Source: a virus
Virus record (IMG/VR): IMGVR_UViG_3300009168_000009
Span: 1-64,000 of that record
Reading direction: 5' to 3' (one strand)
Length of the DNA stretch: 64,000 nt
The notes beneath the pieces were generated by a model. That model was not told where the DNA came from and did no database searches. It saw only the letters and a program-made list of their open reading frames with translations. Of this stretch, positions 6,811 through 62,263 are shown piece after piece; the first letter of the stretch is position 1, and every line of letters starts with the position of its first letter. The position numbers and the translations under genes are program-made.

Positions 6811-7527
6811 TCACCCCCTGATGTTTCGGTCGTATGGATCATTGCCAAACCAATCGGGACCGACGCGCAGGCGCGGATAATGCCACACCGGAGGCACCGT
6901 GGTCTTGCCGGTATATTCCTCCCAAAGATAGGTCGAGTCCGGCAACGCCGAGCCCTGCACCACTAGCGACGCCGTGCCCAGGCCGGGGCCTTTGAGCACG
7001 ACTTCCAGCCGCATCACGTGGCGCGAAATATACCACGGCATGACATCGATCTTTGAGGCGATGCCCCAGGTCAGCAGGTAGGAGATCGCTTCGAGTGCAT
7101 ACTGTCTGGCCATCATCAGCGTCTGGTTGTTGACGTGATTCCATTGCAACGCCCACAGTTTCGAGCCGCTGATAAAGGACGAGCCGCGACTGCCGACATA
7201 ATCGCCGCCACGAAAAGAGTCTGCCCACCAGCCGCCGGCCCGGCTGTGATCGATGAACGGCGGCGCTTCGTTGCACTCAACTTGCCCGCGCGTGAACAGC
7301 TGAGTGATCACCCATCCACGCAACCAGTCACGGCGATCGAGCGTGCCGCTGGCGGTGACGTTGAGATTGGGATCGCCCTCCTGAATGCCCTCGCAATTCC
7401 CCGGCCGGCACAACGGAATCCGGCGGCTGGAAATTGGCGGCTGGAACAGCGGGAAGTTCGCGGTGCGGCAGCGTGTCGGCGCTGGCTCGCAGAGATTCTG
7501 CGGCGGGCTGTATGTGATCATCGTCAT
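6811..7527 (-). CDS. Baseplate protein, Mu gp46-like
   Basis: Residues about 88-145 (AGGWWADSFRGG, GSKLWALQWN, QYALEAISYLLTWG) match the signature of the Phage GP46 family, in which RRGWWGD and GSRLWLL are typical. The family belongs to the Mu/P2-type baseplate, next to gp47, corresponding to P2 gpW/T4 gp25-type proteins that start sheath assembly. At 238 aa it is longer than Mu gp46 because of an N-terminal Cys/Pro-rich extension (residues 1-50) and a C-terminal tail. It ends 3 nt before the gp47-like start, suggesting coupled translation. Confidence 0.85.
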   Translation of the reverse strand: MTMITYSPPQNLCEPAPTRCRTANFPLFQPPISSRRIPLCRPGNCEGIQEGDPNLNVTASGTLDRRDWLRGWVITQLFTRGQVECNEAPPFIDHSRAGGWWADSFRGGDYVGSRGSSFISGSKLWALQWNHVNNQTLMMARQYALEAISYLLTWGIASKIDVMPWYISRHVMRLEVVLKGPGLGTASLVVQGSALPDSTYLWEEYTGKTTVPPVWHYPRLRVGPDWFGNDPYDRNIRG

Positions 7528-16424: not shown

Positions 16425-16799
16425 CTATGCAGCCAGCGGCAGCAGCTCGATGATCTCGTCTGTGATCAGTGTCAGCTTTTGCGTGTTCTTTTTCGCATCG
16501 TAGGCATCCTCGGCGATATTCGAGGCATGCTCCGTGGAGAACGTGCGGCCGTCGCAAAGCTCAAGCACCAGCGGCACGTTGCAGATTTCTTGGAAGTAGC
16601 GAACGTACATATCGACCGGCACCACCACGGTCGCCTCAATCACCGGGTTGCGATCTTCCAGCGTCCACTCGCCGTCATAGGCTTCTGTGCGCCGCTGGTT
16701 GGTCACGATCACGGTGACATCGCCGTCCGACTGCAAGCGGATCGAACGGCCTTGAATCGTAAAGTTGAGCACGCCTTTGCATTTAATGCAGATCGCCAT
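16425..16799 (-). CDS. Tail tube protein (Mu gpM-like)
   Basis: At 124 aa, immediately after the sheath gene, it has size and place of the Mu tail tube. The sequence is beta-rich (GVLNFTIQGRSIRLQSDGDV, PVIEATVVVPVDMYVRYFQE) with the 'G....V......T' start typical of gpM-family tube proteins. Hexameric rings stack to form the inner tube through which DNA passes. A CIKCKG motif at residues 4-9 and two more Cys are unusual for a tube protein. Confidence 0.8.
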   Translation of the reverse strand: MAICIKCKGVLNFTIQGRSIRLQSDGDVTVIVTNQRRTEAYDGEWTLEDRNPVIEATVVVPVDMYVRYFQEICNVPLVLELCDGRTFSTEHASNIAEDAYDAKKNTQKLTLITDEIIELLPLAA

Positions 16800-16817
16800 G
16801 GCTTTAGCCCCTCACGT

Positions 16818-18347
16818 TTAGACCGGCGGGATGCACGAGAACTCGGGCGCCACATCAATGCTGGTGGCGATACGGGCGAGCTGATTGACTAGATCAAGAT
16901 CAATCATGACGTTGACGCGATTCGGATCGCAGTTGTTGAACGTGTTGGTGCGCTCGACGCGGACCATCTTTTCCAACGACTCCGAAGTCGGCTCGGCGGT
17001 CCAGCCGAATTGCGTGCCACGCATCCACGCGATGATGGACGCCTGCAGAATGCGCGGCGTCACCGCGCGCTTGCCCTGCGGAATGCGGGTGCCATCGTTC
17101 ATCAGCGAGACGCTGGCATAGTTGTGGCGATACCAGTTGCCGAGATCGCGCACAAACTTGACCGTGGTGTAGCGGCTCTCGACGCGCTGCCATGCGCCGT
17201 CCGGCGCGCCGGTGTTAGGATCATACTTGTAGGTCGTCAGCGGCTCCTCGATCCACAGCTGCGTGTTGCGCAAGCCGCGCGAGTTGGCCACGTCCCAATT
17301 CATGATGCCGGCATCGTAGAAGGCGCGCTTCTCGGCCGAAGTCCAGACCGTGGAGCATTGCCGGCTGTCGAATAGGAAGCCAAGGAAGCCGTTGTCATAC
17401 TGCACTGGCCGGCTCGGATCGTAGCAAGCGGTGCAGCACACGCGCGAAGTGGTCGCGGCGGCCATGACATAGCCGGGATACTTGTAGTCGGTGCGCACCG
17501 GCACCACGACTTCCTCTGGATTGTTGCGATCACGGCCATAGGCGGCGATCGTGCCGGCGCTCGCCGTCTTGCTGTGGAATAGATGACCGCCTTTGAAGTT
17601 GCCCTGCACACCGCAGCGCCAGTTTTGCCGCACGAGCTGGATGAACGCCTCGATGGCGATCTCCTCCTCGGTGCCCAGGCAGATGCAATCCCACGGGCAG
17701 GCCATCGCAGGAATCGCCGTCGTGTATTCGACCACGCCTGCGCCTTCGACGCCGGCCGCCTCGACCACGGTCACGCCTTCTGGGAAGTCGTCGCCGAATT
17801 GCGGATTCCACACCGGCACGAACCAGTTGGACTGCTGGCCCTTGTTCTTGGCGGTGAGCGTGACGACGGCCAGCGCCGCCACGGCGGTGAAGGGCAAGTC
17901 TGCGTCGGCATTGAGCGCGGCGGCAAAGTTGGTTGCAACGCTGTCGGCGGTGGCGCCGACCAGCACACCGACGTTGTAAATCTTGTCAACGATGCTCCAG
18001 CTCAGCACGCCGCTGTTGGTGCATGGGCCGGTGAAGGTGACCGTGTACGTGGCGGCCGTGCCGGCGGGAGGGTCTGCCAATGGCGCCACGTACAGCGGCA
18101 GCTCGGGACAGGTGTTGAAGTGCTGCTCAGCCATCAAAGACAGCACCGAGCCCGGCCCGAATAGCTCGCGGGATTCCTGCACCGAATAGACGATATAGAA
18201 TTCGCCGGGGACGGCAGTGCCTTCGTCCGTCATCTGGGCGATGTAGAGCGGGCGACACAGCTCGGCGAGCGGCATGTAGCCAGTGACGCACCAAGTCAGA
18301 AAGTTTCCGCGAGCCTGGGCGAGCGAGATGCGATTCTGGGCCATCAT
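16818..18347 (-). CDS. Contractile tail sheath protein (Mu gpL-like)
   Basis: A 509-residue protein directly upstream of the tube gene. The C-terminal half (NWDVANSRGLRNTQLWIEEP, FVRDLGNWYRHNYASVSLMN, AVTPRILQASIIAWMRGTQF) follows the pattern of phage tail sheath proteins, with the conserved domain that interlocks neighbouring subunits. It shows that the phage is a myovirus-type. About 14 Cys are present, including TSRVCCTACYDPS and CPWDCICLG. Translation starts at the ATG pair at 18347. Confidence 0.86.
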   Translation of the reverse strand: MMAQNRISLAQARGNFLTWCVTGYMPLAELCRPLYIAQMTDEGTAVPGEFYIVYSVQESRELFGPGSVLSLMAEQHFNTCPELPLYVAPLADPPAGTAATYTVTFTGPCTNSGVLSWSIVDKIYNVGVLVGATADSVATNFAAALNADADLPFTAVAALAVVTLTAKNKGQQSNWFVPVWNPQFGDDFPEGVTVVEAAGVEGAGVVEYTTAIPAMACPWDCICLGTEEEIAIEAFIQLVRQNWRCGVQGNFKGGHLFHSKTASAGTIAAYGRDRNNPEEVVVPVRTDYKYPGYVMAAATTSRVCCTACYDPSRPVQYDNGFLGFLFDSRQCSTVWTSAEKRAFYDAGIMNWDVANSRGLRNTQLWIEEPLTTYKYDPNTGAPDGAWQRVESRYTTVKFVRDLGNWYRHNYASVSLMNDGTRIPQGKRAVTPRILQASIIAWMRGTQFGWTAEPTSESLEKMVRVERTNTFNNCDPNRVNVMIDLDLVNQLARIATSIDVAPEFSCIPPV

Positions 18348-21908: not shown

Positions 21909-22082
21909 TTATCCTCGGCGAGCTTCGGTCTGCCGGCGCTCGTCGCGATCGATGCCTTGACCCTGGATGCCGCCGAACGTGGTGGTGCCGGTCGTGGTGC
22001 ACATGCACGGCGACGGGAAGTATTCGGTCTGACACGGAGCCGCCGGCCCAGCGCAGAGCACCATGCAGCGATTTACGATCAT
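21909..22082 (-). CDS. Small Cys-rich protein, 57 aa
   Basis: A frame from the ATG at 22082, preceded by AGGAG at 7 nt, to a TAA at 21909. It reads MIVNRCMVLCAGPAAPCQTE, then a CMCTTTGTTTFGG segment and a charged tail. Five Cys in the first 30 residues match the cysteine-rich style of neighbouring virion proteins. The gene starts 3 nt before the stop of the upstream gene. Function unknown; perhaps a small virion or scaffolding peptide. Confidence 0.65.
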   Translation of the reverse strand: MIVNRCMVLCAGPAAPCQTEYFPSPCMCTTTGTTTFGGIQGQGIDRDERRQTEARRG

Positions 22083-22752: not shown

Positions 22753-23394
22753 TCACATACCTGTGTGCCGAAGCCGTGTCACCACGGCCAACAGCTCCAG
22801 ACTGGTCGCGCCCTGCGAGAAAATCCGCACGAATTGCTTGGGGCACGCCACCGCGATCTGGCATTGCGAGTGAGCCTTGATCGGGTTCTGCGCCGACAAC
22901 GTGATCGAGGCATCGCCCACATCAACCCACGTCAGATTGAACGTCGATCCGATTCCGGGGCCGGTGCTGGAGACTTGCGGCCGTGGATTGGTCGGCGTCG
23001 CCCCGGTGAGGCTGCCGCCGTCATCAATCGTAACGGCGGTGATCACTCCCGCATTGACGGTTGCGACCGCGAGCACGACGCCATTGCCCAGGCTGATCTT
23101 GTTGCCCACGACATGGCCGGTGCCGCCAGCGGCAATGGCCGCCGCGTTGACCCGTTTCGTCGCGACGGCTGGCACCGGCGAGCATTCGGGCAAAATCTGC
23201 AGCGGCGCAAACGTCCCCGGCACGCACGGATCGCCGGCAGATGCATCCGCACCCTGGAACGTGTAGGTGCCGCTGGTGATGTCGGAGTCGGTCTGATTGG
23301 CAAGCACCAGGGCGTAGGCATAGCCCGAGCTGATGTCGGCATACTTCGGCGACATTGCATTGAACGTGCGAACCGTGCCGCCTGCCGAGATCAT
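22753..23394 (-). CDS. Capsid-associated protein A (paralogue of the 132-aa neighbour) with an inserted domain
   Basis: The N-terminal 70 residues (MISAGGTVRTFNAMSPKYAD, PCVPGTFAPLQILPECSP) and the last 50 (QIAVACPKQFVRI, VVTRLRHTGM) align residue by residue with the neighbour at 23395. Between them lie about 80 extra residues (VVGNKISLGNGVVLAVATVN, DDGGSLTG) that look like a beta-rich module seen in many phage structural proteins. Directly downstream of the capsid gene, so a decoration or stabilising protein is likely. No separate membrane or signal sequence. Confidence 0.65.
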   Translation of the reverse strand: MISAGGTVRTFNAMSPKYADISSGYAYALVLANQTDSDITSGTYTFQGADASAGDPCVPGTFAPLQILPECSPVPAVATKRVNAAAIAAGGTGHVVGNKISLGNGVVLAVATVNAGVITAVTIDDGGSLTGATPTNPRPQVSSTGPGIGSTFNLTWVDVGDASITLSAQNPIKAHSQCQIAVACPKQFVRIFSQGATSLELLAVVTRLRHTGM

Positions 23395-23793
23395 TTACAT
23401 GCCCGTCCGCTTGAGCCGAGTGACGACCGCGAGGATGTCCAGCGTGCCGGCGGTGCCGGCGACGCGGACGAATTGCTTCGGACATGCAACGGCGATGTGG
23501 CACTGCGACATGGCCTTGATCGGATGCTGCGCATCCACGGTGACGACGGCATCCGGAGCCCCTGCGCCGAGCGGCGGCGAGCATTCCGGCTGCACGTCGA
23601 GCGGTGCGAAGGTGCCCGGCACGCAAGGATCGTTGGCGGAAGCGTCCGCGCCCTCGATCGTGAACGTGCCGCTGGTGACATCGGCGCCGGTCTGGTTCGA
23701 CAGCACGATCTCGTAGGCATAGCCCGCCGAGAGATCGGCGTATTTCGGGCTGGCGACATTGAACGCCAGGACGGTGCCGGCTGCGCTGATCAT
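23395..23793 (-). CDS. Capsid-associated protein B (132 aa), paralogue of the 213-aa neighbour
   Basis: This protein begins MISAAGTVLAFNVASPKYAD and ends VVTRLKRTGM, nearly the same as the next gene, which starts directly after it. The shared fold is beta-rich with conserved Cys at DPCVPG, PECSP, CHIAVACPK. It lies between the major capsid gene and its paralogue, as a tandem duplicate. Placement points to a head decoration or minor capsid role, by inference. Confidence 0.65.
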   Translation of the reverse strand: MISAAGTVLAFNVASPKYADLSAGYAYEIVLSNQTGADVTSGTFTIEGADASANDPCVPGTFAPLDVQPECSPPLGAGAPDAVVTVDAQHPIKAMSQCHIAVACPKQFVRVAGTAGTLDILAVVTRLKRTGM

Positions 23794-23836: not shown

Positions 23837-25186
23837 TTACTGGATTCGGAGCAAGCGACCGGCGTTGACGCAGAGCGGCGCGCCGCCGATCCGTGCTTCG
23901 AACTTGAACAACACGCAGAAGCCCGCCGAATATGGGTCTTGCTGCATGGTCACCGCCTTGCGATTGACCACCATGTACAGCTGATTCCAATTCGCGAATG
24001 CGACCGGCGTTGCACCGGGCACTGCGTCCGGCATCTGGTTCGCGATCACGACCGGCGAGCCGGCGATGACGTACTGGCCGGCATTGAGCGGCGACGCCAG
24101 CATGATCGGACGGCCCATGGCGTCCGACATGGTGAGCGTGAGGCCGAACGTGTTGCCGTTCATGAGATAGGACGTGCCCGCTCCCTGGAAGTTGGTCGGC
24201 ACCTGATACTTGAGCAGGATCAAGTCCTGCCAGGAGAACTGGCCGGCCGGTGTGATCGAGCCGGTGTCACAGATCGGCATGCCCGAGCGCAGAATGCCGA
24301 GCGGCTTTCCAACGCCATCGCCGCTGACGATCGCCGTGGAGATTTGATTGCGGAATGCCCGATTGACCTTGCCGAGCAGCCAGGACTCCACGTTGACGTT
24401 GGCGTCCTCCAGCAAGTCGCGGCTGGTGCAGACGATATAGCGCAGCGACTCGGGCTTGATCTCGACTTCGCCCAGGCCCTCGCCGATTTGCTGCGTGGGA
24501 TTGTTGGCGAAGCATTGCGACTCGCAAGCCCACGCCGCCTGATCCCAGATTTCATTGTCCACGAGGAATTTGACCGACGGGCCGCTGATCGAGAGGTTCG
24601 CCATCAAGCCGGTGAGATCGGTCACGTCTTCGATACACGAGAGAATCGTGCTGGACATTTCCGGCGCCATCAGGAATCCGGACGCGCCGAGATTGAATGT
24701 TGAGAGCGCCTTGCGTTGATCCTCTGGCAGCACGGCAACGTTGGTGCAGTGCATCAGCGAGCGGATCGCCTTGACCGCGATCTCGGCCACGGCCAGCTCG
24801 TCAGCGGTGTAGCTGAACGGATGATCGCCGCTGTCTGATCGCTTGGTGACGCGATGGAAGTGCTTTGCTTCCAGCAGGCCGACTGCCGACTCTTTCGTGG
24901 ACTCGTTGTCACTGCCAGAGCCGGGGCGGTTGATCTTCTTGGAGAGCGTGTTGATCGTCTCCTGCAACGACTGCAAGGTGGTCGCCTTCTCGGCTTCCTC
25001 CTTCACGATGCGGTCCAGCTTGGCCTGGATGTCCGCGATCGTCTTGGAGCCGGCGTCGTAGCCTTCCTTCAGCTCCTTGAAGGTATCGAGGCGTGCCGCC
25101 TCGGCCTTCTGCATTTCCTCGCCCTGTTTCTTGACCTCGGCCTGGACGGACTTGATCAGATCGGCAACCGTGTCGGCTACGGTCAT
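23837..25186 (-). CDS. Major capsid protein, HK97 fold
   Basis: The 449-residue protein has a charged coiled-coil N-terminus (residues 1-90, the HK97 delta-domain equivalent that acts as scaffold and is normally removed by the protease), then the HK97-type body with GFLMAPEMSSTILSCIEDVT, EVEIKPESLRYIVCTSRDLL and VNRAFRNQISTAIVSGDGVG, matching the family's signature for capsid subunits. The cleavage site probably lies near residues 95-115. The gene directly follows the protease with a 4-nt overlap. Eight Cys are present. Confidence 0.92.
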   Translation of the reverse strand: MTVADTVADLIKSVQAEVKKQGEEMQKAEAARLDTFKELKEGYDAGSKTIADIQAKLDRIVKEEAEKATTLQSLQETINTLSKKINRPGSGSDNESTKESAVGLLEAKHFHRVTKRSDSGDHPFSYTADELAVAEIAVKAIRSLMHCTNVAVLPEDQRKALSTFNLGASGFLMAPEMSSTILSCIEDVTDLTGLMANLSISGPSVKFLVDNEIWDQAAWACESQCFANNPTQQIGEGLGEVEIKPESLRYIVCTSRDLLEDANVNVESWLLGKVNRAFRNQISTAIVSGDGVGKPLGILRSGMPICDTGSITPAGQFSWQDLILLKYQVPTNFQGAGTSYLMNGNTFGLTLTMSDAMGRPIMLASPLNAGQYVIAGSPVVIANQMPDAVPGATPVAFANWNQLYMVVNRKAVTMQQDPYSAGFCVLFKFEARIGGAPLCVNAGRLLRIQ

Positions 25187-25893
25187 GGCAAGCGCCTTTC
25201 TTTAACGTCGTTCAACAATGCCTGGACAGTCGAAGCCAAGGCGGTGAGGGCGGCATCATCGTCAGCCCGATAGCCGTCAATCTCAGTGATCCCGACGCGG
25301 CTGGGCTGCGTCAGCAGCGCGTCAAAACCTTTGCGCATAACCACTTCAATCTCATCATCGGTCAGGCCGTTGTCGCGCAGCCATTGCCACGTGTCGTCAC
25401 GCGACAAACTCTTGACGGTGCTGATCCGCGCGCCACGATTGGCGGGCATCGAGCACACGCTGCATTCCATCAGCTCGGCTTTCTTGATGGTGCGGACTTG
25501 CTTCGTATCATCCCAGGACGCGCCGCCGGGCTCGATCAGAAAGCCGACCGATAGGCCGGTGAGGAAGTTTTGCTTCATCAGCGCGTGCGTCTCGCGGCCC
25601 TTCTCGGTGAGCAGCGTGATCTGGCCTTCGACGTGCAGCGACTTGTCCTGCTGTTCGAACTTGGTCCAGCCGCCGATCAGATGTTCGCGGTTGTGATCGC
25701 GATACATCCGGACTTCTTTAGGATTGATGTTGCCGAAGGCGCCGGGGGCAATGATGTCGCGCGCTCGATCGCGCTGTGCTGTGGAGGCGACGCCAGTAAA
25801 AGTCGCTACGTCGGCGCCTTCGCTCAGGGCTTTGGTTTCAAAGCCGCTGCCGGTCCACGTCAGGTCGTGCTGCAACATGAGTGCCCCGCGCAA
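25183..25893 (-). CDS. Prohead protease, HK97 family
   Basis: A 236-residue protein with the U35-type serine protease pattern: TGVASTAQRDRARDIIAPGA, His67 in YRDHNRE, Ser115 in GLSVGF and an acidic residue in ELMECSV. It cleaves scaffold segments of the major capsid protein during head maturation. The gene lies between the MuF-like and capsid genes. Translation may begin at MRG or at the internal MLQHDLTW six codons later. The C-terminal helix (TALASTVQALLNDVKERRLP) is typical. Confidence 0.88.
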   Translation of the reverse strand: MRGALMLQHDLTWTGSGFETKALSEGADVATFTGVASTAQRDRARDIIAPGAFGNINPKEVRMYRDHNREHLIGGWTKFEQQDKSLHVEGQITLLTEKGRETHALMKQNFLTGLSVGFLIEPGGASWDDTKQVRTIKKAELMECSVCSMPANRGARISTVKSLSRDDTWQWLRDNGLTDDEIEVVMRKGFDALLTQPSRVGITEIDGYRADDDAALTALASTVQALLNDVKERRLP

Positions 25894-25963: not shown

Positions 25964-26764
25964 TCAGGGCGGGGTGATCCAACCGTCCTCGGAAGCCGGC
26001 CGCCGGGCCGGTCGCATCGGCAACTCCGGCGCTGGCCGGGGCGCGGTCTTGTAGAGCACCGAGCAGCGGCAGTTGACGATCTCCTCGGGGCCTGCACCCA
26101 AGCTGCCGTCGCCGGGCCGCATCATCTGCGCGCCGCCAACCGAGAACGGTTCATCCATCGGGACGTTCTGGCCGTGGGCAGCGGCATGCGTCGGCCGCGT
26201 CTTGTTATCTCCGACCGCATGCCATGTCTTGCTCTCGATCTTGATATTCTTGTGCCGCATCGAGGCTTCGATCGCCGCCATGGCGGCGTTGTGCGTCTCC
26301 GTCCGCGCGATCGATGCCGCCCGTGCCCGCGCCAGGGCCGGCGCCTGCTTCCTGATCTCCCGCGCGATCGTGTCGGTGCCTTTGCGATCCCGCACCATGT
26401 CGCTGACGATCGTCGCGATGTCATCCACCATCTTTTGCGCAATGTTATTGATCTGATCCCCGGCGTGGAGATCGAGCCACGCCAGCTGCTCCTGCATGAA
26501 GCGGCTGATATCAAGCGAAATCCCCGCCTTTTCCTCCAGCTGCTTGGTCACGGCACGATACTGATCGCGATAGATGCGGCGGTAGAACCGTGCCAGTAAC
26601 GGCCGGCCGCGCTCGCGGATGTAGGACTGGCCCTGGTTGAAGCCACGGGTCACTTGCATCCGGATCGCCGCCGTCAGAATCGCCGTCAGCAACACGTGCA
26701 GCCGCTGCTCGATCATGTCGAGATACTTTTGGAATTCGCGATCAGAGGCAACGTCAAGCAGCAT
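25964..26764 (-). CDS. MuF-like head morphogenesis protein
   Basis: The 266-residue protein carries the Phage_Mu_F C-terminal signature: ASIARTETHNAAMAAIEASM, DNKTRPTHAAAHGQNVPMDE, FSVGGAQMMRPGDGS and PEEIVNCRCSV. The N-terminal 130 residues are helical. MuF proteins are minor head proteins ejected or located near the portal. It ends with a Pro/Arg-rich tail. The start lies 10 nt inside the end of the methyltransferase gene. Confidence 0.88.
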   Translation of the reverse strand: MLLDVASDREFQKYLDMIEQRLHVLLTAILTAAIRMQVTRGFNQGQSYIRERGRPLLARFYRRIYRDQYRAVTKQLEEKAGISLDISRFMQEQLAWLDLHAGDQINNIAQKMVDDIATIVSDMVRDRKGTDTIAREIRKQAPALARARAASIARTETHNAAMAAIEASMRHKNIKIESKTWHAVGDNKTRPTHAAAHGQNVPMDEPFSVGGAQMMRPGDGSLGAGPEEIVNCRCSVLYKTAPRPAPELPMRPARRPASEDGWITPP

Positions 26765-27401
26765 CGGCCTCAGCCTCCCAGCCCCAGCAATCCCAGCCCG
26801 GCCGCGCCGGGCCGCGACGGTTCAACTCGATCTTAGGCAGCGTTGGATAAAGCTCCTCGATCATCCGCAGAAAGACTTCCGGCTTGGCGCTGTGCGCGCC
26901 GCGTGGAGCCTCGATCACGCTCGACCATTGTGTGCCCGGTGCCGGCGCCGGGATTGCGCCGCGCGTCCCGATCAGCAGCAGCTCGTGCCTGTTTCGGTTC
27001 CAGTAGCCGAGCCCGGCCTTGTCCTTGAGCCAGATGTGATGCGACTTATAGTCGAAGCCCCAATACGCCATCACCGTCAAAGCATGCGGCAACATCGGGA
27101 CGGTCACCCAAAGGAATAAGACGGCATCAGCAGCAGCGATCGTCTCCACTTCACGCCGCGCGATGGTCATGACGCTCGATGTCGGATAGTGATTATCGGC
27201 GGCGCGATCCATGCCCGTCTCCCGCGACCACGGCTCCCAGCGCCATTCCGGATCGGCGACGATCACGCCGTATCGCTTGTCGGGGAGCGCGCGTTGGCGC
27301 TTGCCCAGCTCCCGCTCGCGCTTTGCGCGCAATCGTTTCTTGATCAGCGCCTTTTTATTTTTCGCATTCGCCGCACTCGAAACCGCACGCCGACTGGCCA
27401 T
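26754..27401 (-). CDS. MT-A70-type DNA adenine N6-methyltransferase
   Basis: The 215-residue protein has YGVIVADPEWRWEPWSRETG, the SAM/target-base motif of MT-A70 enzymes in DPEW rather than DPPW form, followed by FLWVTVPMLPHALTVMAYWG, RHELLLIGTRG and HSAKPEVFLRMIEELYP, all in the order of the family. It would methylate adenine in DNA, presumably phage DNA against host restriction. The first 40 residues are basic and may bind nucleic acid. It sits in the head operon as a cargo gene between portal and MuF-like genes, overlapping both neighbours. Confidence 0.82.
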   Translation of the reverse strand: MASRRAVSSAANAKNKKALIKKRLRAKRERELGKRQRALPDKRYGVIVADPEWRWEPWSRETGMDRAADNHYPTSSVMTIARREVETIAAADAVLFLWVTVPMLPHALTVMAYWGFDYKSHHIWLKDKAGLGYWNRNRHELLLIGTRGAIPAPAPGTQWSSVIEAPRGAHSAKPEVFLRMIEELYPTLPKIELNRRGPARPGWDCWGWEAEADAA

Positions 27402-27576: not shown

Positions 27577-28839
27577 TCACGTCGGCTGGTTCTCCAGCTC
27601 CTTGCCCACATTGCCGGCCATGATCTCAACTTGCAGCCGCTGCCGGTTCATGATCTCGGTCTGGATCGGCACGTCGCTCATCGGATCATCGTTGGGCGGG
27701 TAGCCGAGCAACGCGCGCTGTTCGTTCACCGTCAACATGGTGGCGTTGCGCGCAATGTCGGTGAGCTGCAGCCGCGCTTGCGCCATCGCCGGGATGTGCG
27801 TCACGTCAACCCGTATCTGCGCCTTTGTCTCCCCGTGCAGGAGCGCGTGGTTGAGCGCCGCCACATAGAGATTGAGTTAACCGGGCAGCACGGTGTCGGT
27901 GAGGAAGCCGACGCGCGCGTTGATCAGATTATTATAAGTGTCGGTGCCGGGGATGCCGACGAGCTGCGTGGGCACGCCGAACGTCATGCAAACGTCGCGC
28001 GCCAAGCTGTCCTTGATCTCGACCGATAACGCCGACGCCGGGTCTTCGGACAGTCGCGTCAACGCCCACTTGGCATTGGCGGCGATCATGGTGCCGCCCG
28101 ACTCCTTGCCGTTCAACTTGAAGCGATCGAGCTGCGAGCGCACCTCGTCCAGCACCTTTTGATGCAAGTCCTTTTCCGTGGACAGCAGGCCGGTGATATT
28201 CGAGCTGTTGCTGACGATATCCGCGCATCGCTGCAGAATCCGGGTGAACACTTCGGCCGGTGCTGCCGCGATTGCCGCCGGGGATTTGTCGGTCTGCCAG
28301 TTGAGCGCCGGCCGGTGGATGTGGATCAGCTCGCACTCGCCGGTTTCGGAATCGACCGGATAGGTGATCGTGCCCTTGCCGGTGGTGTGCTTGAAAGCCG
28401 TGATCACTTTAGAATGGTCTAAATACTCGATCTGAATCTCATTCGCGTTGACCGGCCACAGCTCCAGAACGATCGGGCTATTGCCGCTGACGCCCCGGAC
28501 TTGCTTGAGATAGGCGCGGTTGGCCACCGCCAGCGAAGCCGCCACGAAATACTGCAGGCCAGCGCCGGTCCATTGCGGATTGGGCCGCACCAGCACGTCG
28601 GCCACGGCTTGCTCACGCGGCGGCAGGCCGGCGTCGCCGTTGTGGACCTCCAGGGCGACCGAGGAGGACATCTGGCCGATCATGTCGACCGAGCGCCAGA
28701 GGTAGATGCTGCGGACATATTCCCGCAGCATGTCGCTCGACATCCGATCGAGTGAAGCCGTGGTGTGGACCGCCGACGTGACGCCGTTGCCATTCTGGAC
28801 GACCGGAGCCGGCGGCGCAGCCTTGGTGAACCACCCCAT
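27577..28839 (-). pseudogene. Portal protein gene, HK97 type, interrupted by an in-frame TAA
   Basis: Residues 1-320 (from 28839) read as an HK97-type portal: IYLWRSVDMIGQMSSSVALE, YLKQVRGVSGNSPIVLELWP, CADIVSNSSNITGLLSTEKD and the typical FGVPTQLVGIPGTDTYNNL. The frame then meets TAA at 27877-27879, right after DTVLPG, and continues without frame change as LNLYVAALNHALLHGETKAQ and ATMLTVNEQRALLGYPPNDD, the normal end of the family. Total 420 codons, the usual length. A Tyr codon (TAT/TAC) to TAA change is the simplest reading: a null mutation, a sequencing error or an amber-like readthrough case. The second part could start at the GTG at 27864. Confidence 0.82.
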
Positions 28840-29272: not shown

Positions 29273-30601
29273 CTATGCCATCGGAATGTGCGTCACCACT
29301 CGCGATAGCCGCGACAGACCCCAGACCATAGCATCAAGGCGGTTCGGCGATCCATCTACCGATCGATCCCACTCCCGCGAGAACGACAGCATTTCGCCTT
29401 CCAGCTGATCGAGCCCGCGCCGGTGCAGCACGCGGCCCTTCTCGTAAAGCAGGCTGATCGGCTCGGCGCGGAGAACCTTGCCGCGTGACGCCACCACGTC
29501 ATCGATCCGGATCATCGGCAGCGCGCGCTCGCCCCGATCAAAGGCGCGCTCAGCCGCCGCCTTGACCACTTCGACCGCCATGTCACCGCCGAAGTTGCGC
29601 TCGACCACCACATCATCCGCGTCGAACTCGTCATAAGCGCGCACCACTTCGTCGCCCCATTGCGCCGGGCTGGCAGTCAACGTGCGATCGGCCAGGACGG
29701 CAAAGCGGCCGTTGTTGAGCAACGCCGACACCACGATGCCGACATCATCGCTGCCGCCGGAGGGATCAACGCCGATCGCCACTTGCTCGATCTCGCCGTC
29801 TGGGATGTCCTCGTGCTGCAGCCACTCATCTTTGAACAACGCGCCAGCGGGATCGAGGAGCATGCCGCCCAGCAGCTCCTGCCGCCCGAGCCGCGTGCCT
29901 TCGTACAGCTCGCGAATCTTTTTGAGGAACGACGCCGACAGATGCTGCGCGTTCTCATATGTGGTGCCGGACGTGATCCTGATATCGGCCATCGCCGTCA
30001 GCTTTTTCATGAACGGCGAGGGGCGTGGAGTGGTTGCGATCAGGACGCGCGGCTTATCGCCGAGCCGCAGCCCCATCATCATCATGTCGAAGACTTCTTG
30101 CTGATACCGCATGCGGCCGATCTCGTCGATGATCGCCATTTCGCATTGCGGGCCGCGCAAGGAGTCCGGCTCCTCGCCGGAGAACATCACCGCTTTGGCG
30201 CCGTTGGGCCACTCCAGCCGGCGCTTGGTCGCCAGCCAGCGCGGGCGCATGTCGTCAGGCGCGGTCGCCAGAATTCCGCTCGAGCCCTCCAAGTTGACAT
30301 CGTGCACGTCGGCCGTGGTCGGAGCGATCACGTGCAGACGTTTGATGCCGGCGCGGATCGCCATGTGCACCGCCGAGCTGACGGAGTGAGTCTTGCCGGT
30401 GCCGCGACCGCCCAGGAATAGCCAGCACCAGTCAAGATCACGCGGCGGCAGCTGCGCATCCCGCGCCGTGAATATCCAGTCGCCGGCCACGTCATCGGTC
30501 AGGCTCTTGGCCAGCACGCGGCGCTCGTCATCGTTCAAGGCTTTGAGCCGGGCGCGGATGTCGTGGATGCGATTGATCTCAACGGCGAAGCGATCAAGCA
30601 T
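29273..30601 (-). CDS. terL: Terminase large subunit
   Basis: From the ATG at 30601 the protein is 442 aa. Walker A is LGGRGTGKT (about 63-71), Walker B is EMAIIDEIG, the coupling motif is LIATTPRPS, and the nuclease domain opens with IGVDPSGGSDDVGIVV. This ATP-driven motor cuts and packages DNA at the portal. A longer frame to 30835 lies over the small terminase gene in another frame and is unlikely. The start overlaps the end of the small-subunit gene by 8 nt. Confidence 0.9.
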   Translation of the reverse strand: MLDRFAVEINRIHDIRARLKALNDDERRVLAKSLTDDVAGDWIFTARDAQLPPRDLDWCWLFLGGRGTGKTHSVSSAVHMAIRAGIKRLHVIAPTTADVHDVNLEGSSGILATAPDDMRPRWLATKRRLEWPNGAKAVMFSGEEPDSLRGPQCEMAIIDEIGRMRYQQEVFDMMMMGLRLGDKPRVLIATTPRPSPFMKKLTAMADIRITSGTTYENAQHLSASFLKKIRELYEGTRLGRQELLGGMLLDPAGALFKDEWLQHEDIPDGEIEQVAIGVDPSGGSDDVGIVVSALLNNGRFAVLADRTLTASPAQWGDEVVRAYDEFDADDVVVERNFGGDMAVEVVKAAAERAFDRGERALPMIRIDDVVASRGKVLRAEPISLLYEKGRVLHRRGLDQLEGEMLSFSREWDRSVDGSPNRLDAMVWGLSRLSRVVTHIPMA

Positions 30602-31052
30602 CTTTGATGGCCTCGCCTTCGATGATCGGCCCATTCGCCAGTCGATCGAGCGCCGCCATGATCTTTTCCGTTGCGCTGGCTTGCTCTGGCATCGCTTCGT
30701 GCAGCGCGTTCTCGCCGCGCGGCTGCACGTCCAGGCCGAGGAACTTGGCCCGTCGATCCATGAAGCGCACGCACAGCGAGGCGGCTTCGTGATCCCCGTT
30801 GCGGGCCTTCTGATAGAAAATCTGGTTGAGATCATCGAGCCGGGCGAGATCGAGGGCGAGCGTGCGGCTGCGCAGTGTCGGATTGATCCCGCCAGCGGTG
30901 CGGCTGAGCGCGCGATCGACTTCCTGCGGCTCGACTTGCAACGTCTCGGCGATCTGCCAGTCCGGCACGCCGTTCAACCGCAGCCGCAGAATCTTCCGGT
31001 CTTGCTCGAATTTCTGCGTCACGTCCTGATATGAAACAACTTCCGCGCTCAT
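30594..31052 (-). CDS. terS: Terminase small subunit (putative)
   Basis: A 152-residue helical protein directly upstream of and overlapping the large subunit. The first 60 residues contain a helix-turn-helix-like pattern (RLRLNGVPDWQIAETLQVEP, QEVDRALSRT), as expected for the DNA-recognition part; the rest is helical and Asp/Arg-rich as in oligomerisation domains. It would choose the packaging site. It is the first gene of the leftward block; its start is 28 nt from the GTG of the divergent gene, so any promoter overlaps that gene. Confidence 0.7.
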   Translation of the reverse strand: MSAEVVSYQDVTQKFEQDRKILRLRLNGVPDWQIAETLQVEPQEVDRALSRTAGGINPTLRSRTLALDLARLDDLNQIFYQKARNGDHEAASLCVRFMDRRAKFLGLDVQPRGENALHEAMPEQASATEKIMAALDRLANGPIIEGEAIKDA

Positions 31053-34555: not shown

Positions 34556-34652
34556 TCACTAAGGACGGCCCCACGCGGGGCCGTCTCATAGTGTTCATGA
34601 CGAACACTCCCGCCCTTGCAGCGGGATCATCTGCAAAATGGAGTCACACATC
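34553..34652 (+). repeat. Structured intergenic element, copy 3 of 7
   Basis: Begins at the MoxR-like TGA (TGATCACTAAGG). Hairpin 1: GACGGCCCC (34564-34572), acgc, GGGGCCGTC (34577-34585). Hairpin 2: AGTGTTC (34590-34596), atgac, GAACACT (34602-34608). Hairpin 3: CCCGC (34609-34613), CCTTGCA, GCGGG (34621-34625). Then AAAATGGAGTCACACATC before the ATG at 34653. Confidence 0.9.
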
Positions 34653-35744
34653 ATGCCTACCAAGACCACAGGCGCGGCGAAACGCAACGCAAAGGGGCTT
34701 CCCCCGATCGTCGCGAAAAAGTCGAAGGCCAAGGCGCACACTTCCAAGGCTGCACCGCTGGCGATCGTGAAGGCTGACAAGCCCGCACCGAAGCCCGTCG
34801 CGCCGCCCGCGCCGAAGCCCGCTCCCGTGATCACTAAGACAGTCGTCGCCACGCCGCTCTCGCGGAAGGCCACGCTTGTCGCCGTAGTGATCTCGCAATG
34901 GACAGCCCGCAAGCTGGACAAGAAAGTGACCGATGAAGTCAATCGTTCACATGGAGCTGCAGCCGACGCCGGACGATTCAACAAGTTGCTGATCGAGGCC
35001 GCGCGCCTCGAAAAGCTCGGATCGCTCGTGTCGCAAGCCCGCCACGCACATTATCGCTACACGAAGCCGTGGTGCGATGAAGGAATGAGAATCCTGCCGA
35101 ACGCTCTGCATCAAAAGTTTGCCGAGGAGTTTCGCAGGATCAAACGGGAATTCCATATCGCGGCCGATGAATTCTGCCGCGACTACCCGTCATTCGTGGC
35201 TGAACGCAAGAAGGCGTTGAATGGATTGTTCAACGCTGCCGACTATCCGGACGCAAAGGAAATTCGTGCCAAGTTTCAACTCGACACGAAAACATTCCCC
35301 GTGCCGGACGCTGGCGACTTCCGCAGCGACGTGCTCGATCATGACACGATCGAGGACATCAAGCGGGAGCTGGCCGAGACGAACGAACAAGTGCTGGCCG
35401 ACGCCACCCGCCACTCGATCGATCAGATCACGCGGATCGTTGGCCACATGTCGGAAAAGCTGTCGGAATACAAGCCGGGAGCGCCCGTCAAGAAAGGCAA
35501 GGGCGGCAAGCCGAAGAAAACATTCTTCACCGACTCGCTCGTGGAAAACGTCCGCGAGCTGGCCGACTTGTTGCCTGCGTTCAATCTGACGAATGATCCG
35601 AAGATGGATCACATCGCCAGTCGCATCAAAAAAGAGTTGTGCACCGAGGATGCCGCGGAATTGCGAGTGAGCGAACGTGCTCGCGATGCCGTGCAGAAGT
35701 CGGCAGACGACATTCTTAAAGATGTGAACAAGTTGCTCGGCTAA
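34653..35744 (+). CDS. DUF3150-like helical partner of the MoxR/VWA module
   Basis: A 363-residue protein between ATPase and VWA gene. The first 60 residues are Ala/Pro/Lys-rich (KPVAPPAPKPAPVITKTVVA), the rest is long helices. Features such as TKPWCDEGMRILPNALHQKF and the FPVPDAGDFRSDVL stretch recall DUF3150, a family that sits with CobS-like ATPases and CobT/VWA-like proteins in phage genomes; this recall needs a profile check. A structural adaptor between ATPase and VWA protein is the most natural role. Start chosen to fit element spacing. Confidence 0.65.
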   Translation: MPTKTTGAAKRNAKGLPPIVAKKSKAKAHTSKAAPLAIVKADKPAPKPVAPPAPKPAPVITKTVVATPLSRKATLVAVVISQWTARKLDKKVTDEVNRSHGAAADAGRFNKLLIEAARLEKLGSLVSQARHAHYRYTKPWCDEGMRILPNALHQKFAEEFRRIKREFHIAADEFCRDYPSFVAERKKALNGLFNAADYPDAKEIRAKFQLDTKTFPVPDAGDFRSDVLDHDTIEDIKRELAETNEQVLADATRHSIDQITRIVGHMSEKLSEYKPGAPVKKGKGGKPKKTFFTDSLVENVRELADLLPAFNLTNDPKMDHIASRIKKELCTEDAAELRVSERARDAVQKSADDILKDVNKLLG

Positions 35745-47591: not shown

Positions 47592-47783
47592 TTAGTCGCC
47601 TCCCTGGATGGCCTGGATGATGTCGGCGATCGTCTCGGTCACCGTGAACGTCAACACCCCGTTGCCGGCCGCGATCGACAGCCGAACATGCTCAATGTTC
47701 GGCAGCTGCTCGATCGTGATCACTCGCTCCAGATCGATGATCACTTGCTGGCCGTCGATCTTCTTGAGCAACAGCGGATTCAT
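47592..47783 (-). CDS. Small beta-rich protein, 63 aa
   Basis: From the ATG at 47783: MNPLLLKKIDGQQVIIDLER, then VRLSIAAGNGVLTFTVTETI, alternating strands of a small barrel. Family unknown. The upstream 61-aa frame overlaps it by 92 nt. Confidence 0.62.
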   Translation of the reverse strand: MNPLLLKKIDGQQVIIDLERVITIEQLPNIEHVRLSIAAGNGVLTFTVTETIADIIQAIQGGD

Positions 47784-47877
47784 GGATTTTTTCCTCGGCC
47801 TCAAATTGACGCACACGCGCGATCATTTTGCAAACCGGACAGGCTTGCGGGGAGACGAAGCCGTGATGGCACGTCAT
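47692..47877 (-). CDS. Small CxxC protein, 61 aa
   Basis: The ATG overlaps the upstream stop (ATGA). The N-terminus MTCHHGFVSPQACPVCKMIA is a typical small phage metal-binding start; the last 30 residues overlap the next gene and are of low quality, so a functional domain may be only the first 35 residues. Confidence 0.5.
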   Translation of the reverse strand: MTCHHGFVSPQACPVCKMIARVRQFEAEEKIHESAVAQEDRRPASDHRSGASDHDRAAAEH

Positions 47878-48083
47878 CGGTGCCCACTCGCAACATGCGC
47901 GCGCCGCACGTGCTTGATCCGGGGATGATCGACCGCGTGGCCGCTGCGATGCACGGCATGGCGCAGATGATGCGAGATCGAATGCCACAGCGCCTCGTTG
48001 TCACGATCGCGGCGCAACGCACGGAAATCCTCCCAGGCATGACAGGCATGACGATGCAGCGCGTCGCGGTTGCTCCACGTCAT
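47874..48083 (-). CDS. His-rich small protein, 69 aa
   Basis: Starts at an ATGA overlap with the ParB-like gene. MTWSNRDALHRHACHAWEDF and WHSISHHLRHAVHRSGHAVD have about twelve His and several Arg, perhaps metal- or nucleic-acid-binding. No family recognised. Confidence 0.55.
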   Translation of the reverse strand: MTWSNRDALHRHACHAWEDFRALRRDRDNEALWHSISHHLRHAVHRSGHAVDHPRIKHVRRAHVASGHR

Positions 48084-48616
48084 GAGATCAGCGCCTCGCA
48101 TTGCAGACCCTCCTGGCCGAACTTCTGCAGGAGCTGCGTCTGCTGATGCTCGTCACGGCAGCGGATCACGATCGAATACTGCAGCCCGTCCAAGAGCTGC
48201 GGCGTCGGCGGCTGCGCGTCGGTGAATAACTTCATCAGCTCCTTGTCCTCGAAACCCAGGCTCGATGCGTCGAAGTCGTCCTTGATCGCAAGCAGCTCCT
48301 CCAGCAGCGCGTCGTCGTGCCAGTTCGAGCCGTCACCAATCTTGTTGTCGGCAATGGTGTAGGCACGGCATTGGCTCTCGGTCCAGTCGGTCGCGATGAT
48401 CACCGGAACGTCGGCCATGCGCTCCAGCTGCGCCGCTTGCAAGCGCGCGTGGCCCGCAATGATCGTGCCGTCCTCTCGCACGAGAATGGGCATCGTCCAG
48501 CCAAACTGCTTGAGGCTCGCTCGCAGCTGGTCAATCTGCTTGGTCGGATGAATGCGGCTGTTGCGGGCGTAGGGTTTCAGTTTGTCGATCGGCCAGCGTT
48601 CGATCTGCGTCGTCAT
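48080..48616 (-). CDS. Stand-alone ParB/Srx-like nuclease-domain protein
   Basis: 178 aa from the ATG at 48616. DKLKPYARNSRIHPTKQIDQ, FGWTMPILVREDGTIIAGHA and AYTIADNKIGDGSNW are the ParB N-terminal domain signature (boxes I and II, GHARLQAA). This type is usually fused N-terminal to a DNA adenine methyltransferase; here the methyltransferase part is missing. It could recruit DNA-modification enzymes or bind DNA. A parS-like site lies at 51891. Confidence 0.8.
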   Translation of the reverse strand: MTTQIERWPIDKLKPYARNSRIHPTKQIDQLRASLKQFGWTMPILVREDGTIIAGHARLQAAQLERMADVPVIIATDWTESQCRAYTIADNKIGDGSNWHDDALLEELLAIKDDFDASSLGFEDKELMKLFTDAQPPTPQLLDGLQYSIVIRCRDEHQQTQLLQKFGQEGLQCEALIS

Positions 48617-48816
48617 TGCCAGCGCCTCGGCGGCGAGGAAATGCAGGCCAGCCGCTGCATCAATGGACACTCGGGACCGGGAGCCTTGCCGCAGCCGGGC
48701 CGGAACGGACAGCGCGGCGGCGCGTCGCGATCCATCTCCCCAGCACAGTCAAAGCCGGTCAGATCAAGATCGAAACCGTTCAACACGGCGTGCATGTTGA
48801 TGTCCATGCACCCCAT
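48613..48816 (-). CDS. Cys-rich small protein, 67 aa
   Basis: MGCMDINMHAVLNGFDLDLT, then RCPFRPGCGKAPGPECPLMQ have six Cys with Pro between them. The ATG at 48816 or a TTG at 48831 that overlaps the previous stop could serve. The stop overlaps the ParB-like start. Unknown function; possibly a metal-binding knuckle. Confidence 0.5.
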   Translation of the reverse strand: MGCMDINMHAVLNGFDLDLTGFDCAGEMDRDAPPRCPFRPGCGKAPGPECPLMQRLACISSPPRRWQ

Positions 48817-61423: not shown

Positions 61424-61625
61424 GACGAATCCCGCACCGACTTTTCATTTCCGCGAGGGCTTTTGGACCGGCGTTGCGTGGGGTGCACCGGATAGTCCGG
61501 TGCACCCGCTTTGTTCGAAGTGTCAGGGCGCGCTGCCCGATGTGCCGCTGATGCTGTGGATCGAGAACGGCGCCATGATCCAGCTATGCGATGACTGCAT
61601 CGAACGCTGGCTGATCGCGAGTTAA
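61422..61625 (+). CDS. Zinc-ribbon protein, 67 aa
   Basis: From the ATG at 61422: FHFREGFWTGVAWGAPDSPV, PLCSKCQGALPDVPLMLWIE, LCDDCIERWLIAS. Two CxxC pairs make a zinc ribbon; many phages carry this small protein. The start is divergent from and overlapping with the membrane protein start. Confidence 0.68.
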   Translation: MTNPAPTFHFREGFWTGVAWGAPDSPVHPLCSKCQGALPDVPLMLWIENGAMIQLCDDCIERWLIAS

Positions 61626-62263
61626 CGGCGACCCTTCGGCTGTGCCTCACCTTCCGGCAAGCCCTGATCCGGGCTGCTGCCCACGTCGATTGGATTGCGG
61701 CGGCCTGAAACCGGAATGTACATCCAGCCGTAGTTCGGCACCCACGCGAGCACCCATCCGGGACCGCCCTCGGGCCGTGGCAAGGTGTTGTCGACCCCCG
61801 GCTGGCTCCCCGGCAGGCTGTTGTCCGGCCGAGCGCCGCTTCCTCCACCACCCGGCAGGGTGTTGTCTGGCCGCCCAGGACGGCCGCCCGGCAGCGTGTT
61901 GTCGATCCCCGGCTGACTGCCCGGCAGTCCGATATCCGGATGCACTGGCGCCCACGGCAGGCCGTTGTCGGGATACACTGGAGCCGGCGGCAGGCCGATG
62001 TCTGGCCGGCCAGGGGCGATCGGGAGGCTGTTGTCGGGACGGCCACCGCCTGGACGGCCATAGCCTGGATCGACCGGCGGGCGGTTGCCGAAGCCGGGAT
62101 CGACCGGGGACCAGCCTGGGCGGCCGTAGCCTGGATCGATCGGTGGGCGCACGCCCCAGCCAGGATCAACGGCACCGCCACCGAGGCCCGGCGGCAGCGA
62201 ATTGTCGGGGCGGCCGTCACCGCCGCCCAGCGGTACGATCATAGCGAAAGTCGGTTGCGTCAT
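61622..62263 (-). CDS. Pro/Gly repeat protein, 213 aa
   Basis: Low-complexity protein with about nine copies of a seven-residue motif of the form xPDNSLP (RPDNSLP, RPDIGLP, YPDNGLP, GVDNTLP) between residues 15 and 165, and PGYGRPG-type stretches. The C-terminus has VLAWVPNYGWMYIPVSG. It resembles extended, polyPro-II-like linkers or a virion surface protein. No signal peptide or enzyme motif. Location in the accessory/lysis region suggests virion or host-surface role, by inference. Confidence 0.62.
   Translation of the reverse strand: MTQPTFAMIVPLGGGDGRPDNSLPPGLGGGAVDPGWGVRPPIDPGYGRPGWSPVDPGFGNRPPVDPGYGRPGGGRPDNSLPIAPGRPDIGLPPAPVYPDNGLPWAPVHPDIGLPGSQPGIDNTLPGGRPGRPDNTLPGGGGSGARPDNSLPGSQPGVDNTLPRPEGGPGWVLAWVPNYGWMYIPVSGRRNPIDVGSSPDQGLPEGEAQPKGRR

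Follow-up and report, generated by a model that had tools for sequence, protein, structure and literature searches.

The portal gene of this phage, of the HK97 type, runs along the minus strand from 28839 to 27577 of the window (the whole stretch of DNA analysed here, 64,000 bases out of a 64,226-base virus record). Its translation gives 420 codons and a terminal TGA, with a single internal stop, TAA at 27879 to 27877, codon 321, directly after the residues FLTDTVLPG. Does this codon record a genuine nonsense mutation, an error in the consensus sequence, or a stop that the phage in some way reads through or bypasses? The parts of the gene are these:

27577..28839, minus strand: portal gene, HK97-type, broken at codon 321 (translation; PF04860 and phrog_12; full-length intact relatives).
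27877..27879, minus strand: in-frame TAA at portal codon 321, Tyr in relatives (translation; alignment with relatives).
27880..28839, minus strand: 5' part of the portal gene, residues 1-320, open (PF04860 profile positions 4-263 of 321).
27577..27876, minus strand: 3' part of the portal gene, residues 322-420, open, conserved and severed from the start (dN/dS like that of the 5' part; phrog_12; 85% identity to a relative).

The initial annotation had described a portal frame of 420 codons, open but for the TAA at 27877-27879 after DTVLPG, and its coordinates are right, as is its statement that both flanks of the TAA are intact; the strand, which it did not give, is minus. Each side of the stop matches the portal family, and the two are similarly conserved. 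Residues 1-320 match PF04860 (Phage_portal) with an E value of 4.5e-27 and 95.5 bits against a cut-off of 39.1, which places the product in the family, and residues 322-420 match phrog_12 (portal) with an E value of 3.8e-5 and, weakly, PF04860 positions 270-321 (E 0.012). Two relatives cover PF04860 positions 4-321 without any stop; the window, with its TAA at codon 321, encodes no uninterrupted full-length PF04860 product. The stop stands right after the invariant PG of an LPG motif, inside the portal domain. A sigma-70-like match, at the level of consensus only, was also seen within the gene, at 27959-27931.

The placement of the gene is that of a head gene cluster, with the terminase upstream and the Mu F-like, protease and capsid genes downstream:

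29273..30835, minus strand: terminase large subunit, upstream of the portal (PF03237, PF17289).
25964..26764, minus strand: Mu F-like head morphogenesis protein (PF04233).
25183..25893, minus strand: prohead protease (PF04586).
23837..25186, minus strand: major capsid protein, ending in TAA as in the relatives' stop place; a control (PF05065).
16818..18347, minus strand: tail sheath, ending in TAA as in the relatives' stop place; a control (phrog_165).

Several observations on this region stand apart from the portal question. In two relatives (G001 and G002) the terminase frame is closed by a stop just before MLDRFAVEINR, and in G004 too the stretch upstream contains stops, so that the terminase probably begins near 30594, within the listed frame 29273-30835. 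The portal and Mu F-like genes are separated by an MT-A70-type methyltransferase gene (26754-27401). Behind the capsid gene, at 22753-23793, adjoining genes for proteins of 213 and 132 residues have directly repeated sequence in common (off-diagonal matches around 23176-23394 and 23576-23793); the 132-residue protein has several matches in relatives too, and the pair is probably a duplicated head gene. The tail tube-like and sheath genes (16425-18347) are 98% and 94% identical to those of relatives, and the baseplate and fibre genes farther on are only about 40-65% identical.

Relatives of the portal were drawn from IMG/VR viral contigs, with 15 loci recovered by residues 1-320 as the query and 26 by a ten-row alignment, many of them on the same contigs. 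As the initial annotation held for related portals, the residue at the site is Tyr: codon 321 is TAT or TAC in 24/24 distinct contigs with an aligned residue (tblastn), and none of the 24 has a stop inside the aligned portal. These 24 contigs do not amount to 24 independent lineages, as L008, L009 and L015 are mutually near, and likewise L011-L013. Outside the count stand L068, a 27% identical relative with a gap at the site, L067, in which the site is uncovered, and L016, the other end of the contig of L004. Because the relatives at 85-86% identity have Tyr at the site and a frame open throughout, and because Tyr recurs in all 24 contigs, the stop in the window stands out beyond chance. When 20 of the 24 contigs were compared (L008, L011, L013 and L015 being dropped as close to others), 114 positions showed no variation in 15 rows or more, and only one of them, codon 321, differs in the window.

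The portion of the gene past the stop has been kept under the same constraint as the portion before it. By the Nei-Gojobori method, dN/dS before and after the stop was 0.165 and 0.101 against L002, 0.152 and 0.140 against L003, and 0.136 and 0.126 against L004, the three nearest relatives in this comparison; the values past the stop are similar or lower, which indicates no relaxed constraint there. For some distant pairs the ratio is higher past the stop, for example 0.259 rising to 0.594 between the window and L006. It rises likewise, from 0.262 to 0.442, between two intact relatives (L003 and L006), and the increase is therefore a property of the region. Judged from the sequence, the stop, if real, would be too recent for decay to have set in downstream, and a consensus error would give the same picture.

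Exact DNA patterns across the site (with three N at the stop) or beside it did not bring up a further record of this virus in the viral contigs, in a search that may leave out the window's own or very near records. Phage and plasmid collections held only portals about 22-26% identical (6 and 4 records), and no phage relative was matched by megablast with the head and tail region.

The record as a whole bears on whether the base is real. Its ends overlap exactly by 123 bp, and one reading frame is open across the joined ends; together these indicate a closed circle, with no host flanks. The overlap looks like a k-mer length used in short-read assembly, which makes a random one-read error less likely. 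The gene order is common to the window and to G002, a record of 65,017 bases with an end overlap of 128 bases (99.2%), and the window encodes a contractile tail, with sheath and baseplate.

A screen for further lesions aligned the open reading frames of four relatives to the window and kept the best-scoring frame at each place, a selection that was needed as GC-rich antisense frames otherwise gave very many false stops. The accepted matches cover 48,144 (G002), 31,248 (G001), 39,270 (G004) and 12,855 (G003) bases. Only one internal stop, the portal TAA, fell in a frame of strong conservation (75-86% identity over 401-423 aligned columns); all four relatives revealed it. By eye, from their coordinates, the stops at 6813, 11899, 18938, 25204, 37550, 38323, 52912, 57384 and 62269 lie just upstream of a start, and those at 25966 and 58461 are the genes' own terminal stops; at 25966 the relative's frame continues with poor similarity, and we have taken this as a variable end. 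All other reported stops belong, again by eye, to less conserved frames that are antisense or overlap a gene. The screen, which is blind to missense lesions and to genes without relatives, flagged no frameshift and made no second broken conserved gene visible.

On this evidence, we favour, by somewhat better than an even chance, the reading that the phage, whose genome is complete and myovirus-like, acquired the TAA very recently as an isolated nonsense (ochre) lesion. We infer the base to be truly present in the DNA and the truncated product to be non-functional. Translation would end after residue 320, yielding a portal short of its last quarter (about 100 residues), including the end of the portal domain. 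Alignment with portals of solved structure passes through the site, with GY conserved, and continues for some 60 residues more; the AlphaFold prediction for the portal of one relative was of poor quality (mean pLDDT 43.7) and was left unused. A portal so truncated should not assemble a working ring, and a copy of the genome bearing the lesion would be expected to form neither a working portal ring nor packaged DNA, with rescue possible only where another genome in the cell provides the portal. Virions would not be expected to carry mostly a genome without a functional portal gene, and this counts against reading the TAA as a lesion.

The main competitor, to which we give a substantial chance though one short of even, is a single-base consensus or assembly error, or a wrong pick between strain variants, in which case the portal of the phage is intact; a sequencing error was also among the options of the initial annotation. 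One lesion only in the record, a clean sense codon in every relative and the lack of decay past the stop would all fit an error, and perfect conservation past the stop is equally what a consensus error would yield. Against it, the ends join into a clean circle and conserved genes show no further stop or frameshift artefact, so that the assembly does not look error-rich. Codon 322, where the window alone has Leu and 20/20 relatives have Ile or Val, might be set against a single-base error too; we draw no inference from it because neighbouring differences that span a codon boundary occur often in this gene (27/415 boundaries against L002). For the same reason, we set aside the idea that the differences at codons 321 and 322 were a sign of one event. 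We prefer a nonsense lesion to a consensus error mainly because of the cleanly closed circle, the k-mer-like overlap and the absence of other errors among those looked for.

The remaining explanations, by which the phage reads the stop through, splits the gene, recodes TAA or decays as an old prophage, jointly take only a small part of the probability. Leaky termination, with low-level reading of TAA (perhaps as Tyr) supplying a few portal copies per virion, is improbable, although a portal is needed in only 12 copies, strong constraint persists on both halves of the gene, and the TAA is followed by C, a weaker termination context. The stop is shared by no relative, and shuffled sequences fold as well as the 143 nt around and downstream of the site (z 0.26). 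ARAGORN found no tRNA gene in the 64,000 of 64,226 bases, and hence no suppressor tRNA borne by this part of the phage genome, the host being outside this test; no Rfam element was matched either. Programmed readthrough would be marked by a stop and context conserved in relatives, and here the relatives have a sense codon in all 24 contigs. A more elaborate version, in which a real and tolerated TAA terminates weakly as UAA-C, most product is truncated and rare readthrough makes the portal, so that a leaky ochre codon controls dosage without a suppressor tRNA, is somewhat less probable still.

We rate just as low a portal made in two pieces, with a restart codon allowing separate translation of the 3' part. 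A GTG at 27864 opens a frame of 95 residues past the stop, and the 3' part is conserved. No Shine-Dalgarno-like sequence was seen by eye before the in-frame start codons past the stop, however, and the break falls inside a domain, right after the invariant PG; no relative has a split gene.

Still weaker is an old prophage in decay, one sense of the defective prophage that the initial annotation had offered among its options, and one that the comparison did not support. A lysogenic life is possible, in that the genome encodes an HTH repressor-like protein and a resolvase-type recombinase; RecT and a ParB_N domain protein are encoded too. An integrated element in decay would be expected to have several lesions and flanking host DNA; the record closes into a circle lacking such flanks, with no second lesion and no relaxed constraint, and two scans of genome contigs for a prophage relative by portal gave 39 and 21 pattern matches, none of them confirmed. 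The ParB_N domain protein (48080-48670), together with the resolvase and the closed circle, would also allow a phage-plasmid life; no ParA was identified among the proteins scanned.

Reassignment of TAA to a sense codon is the weakest of all and can be practically dismissed: nothing beyond codon 321 itself speaks for it, and it is contradicted by conserved genes that end in TAA at or near their relatives' stops. Six genes make the case: the tail sheath; the 132-residue gene at 23395-23793; the major capsid; the gene at 34638-35744; the primase; and the gene at 61622-62263. Their counterparts in relatives end at that residue or only a few residues away, and a seventh, at 47592-47816, is similar, so that TAA is a real stop in this phage. 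The lesion screen showed no other TAA inside a conserved frame, where a TAA-recoded phage would have several such genes with TAA not serving as a stop, and the window has no suppressor tRNA gene. The argument of the initial annotation against recoding is thereby strengthened; the TAA at 21909 that it gave as an example is present, on the minus strand, as a candidate gene end, and the conserved genes are better examples. The readthrough that it also proposed gained no positive evidence here, and the same holds for a split portal.

Most likely, the event is of an ordinary kind and not a new way of reading genes. The finding has mainly annotation value, in that the record is to be flagged as having one unverified null portal codon, not as evidence of recoding; should a productive phage truly carry this stop, it would offer a rare example in which a head protein is made by passing an ochre codon without assistance.

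Among known systems, stop-codon-recoded phages (crAss-like and others; PMC7886860, PMC9523058) resemble the window in having an in-frame standard stop in a phage structural gene; in them, suppressor tRNAs accompany the recoding and many codons are affected, whereas in the window one codon only is concerned and TAA ends other genes. The HK97-type portals (PF04860; phrog_12) share with the window the family, the place by terminase, protease and capsid, and a full frame on both sides of the stop, but not the in-frame TAA at codon 321. The closest solved portals by profile, gp7 of PDB 8fwb (E 3e-26) and the portal of PDB 9rkq (E 1.1e-20), keep GY at the site; they are intact, unlike the portal of the window, and are only distant relatives by sequence. 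Nonsense mutants in portal genes are classical in phages, the T4 gene 20 ambers among them. Although the window comes from an uncultivated phage under no laboratory selection and is known from consensus sequence alone, its likeness to these ambers lies in a premature stop in an essential head gene, with packaging lost unless a suppressor is present.
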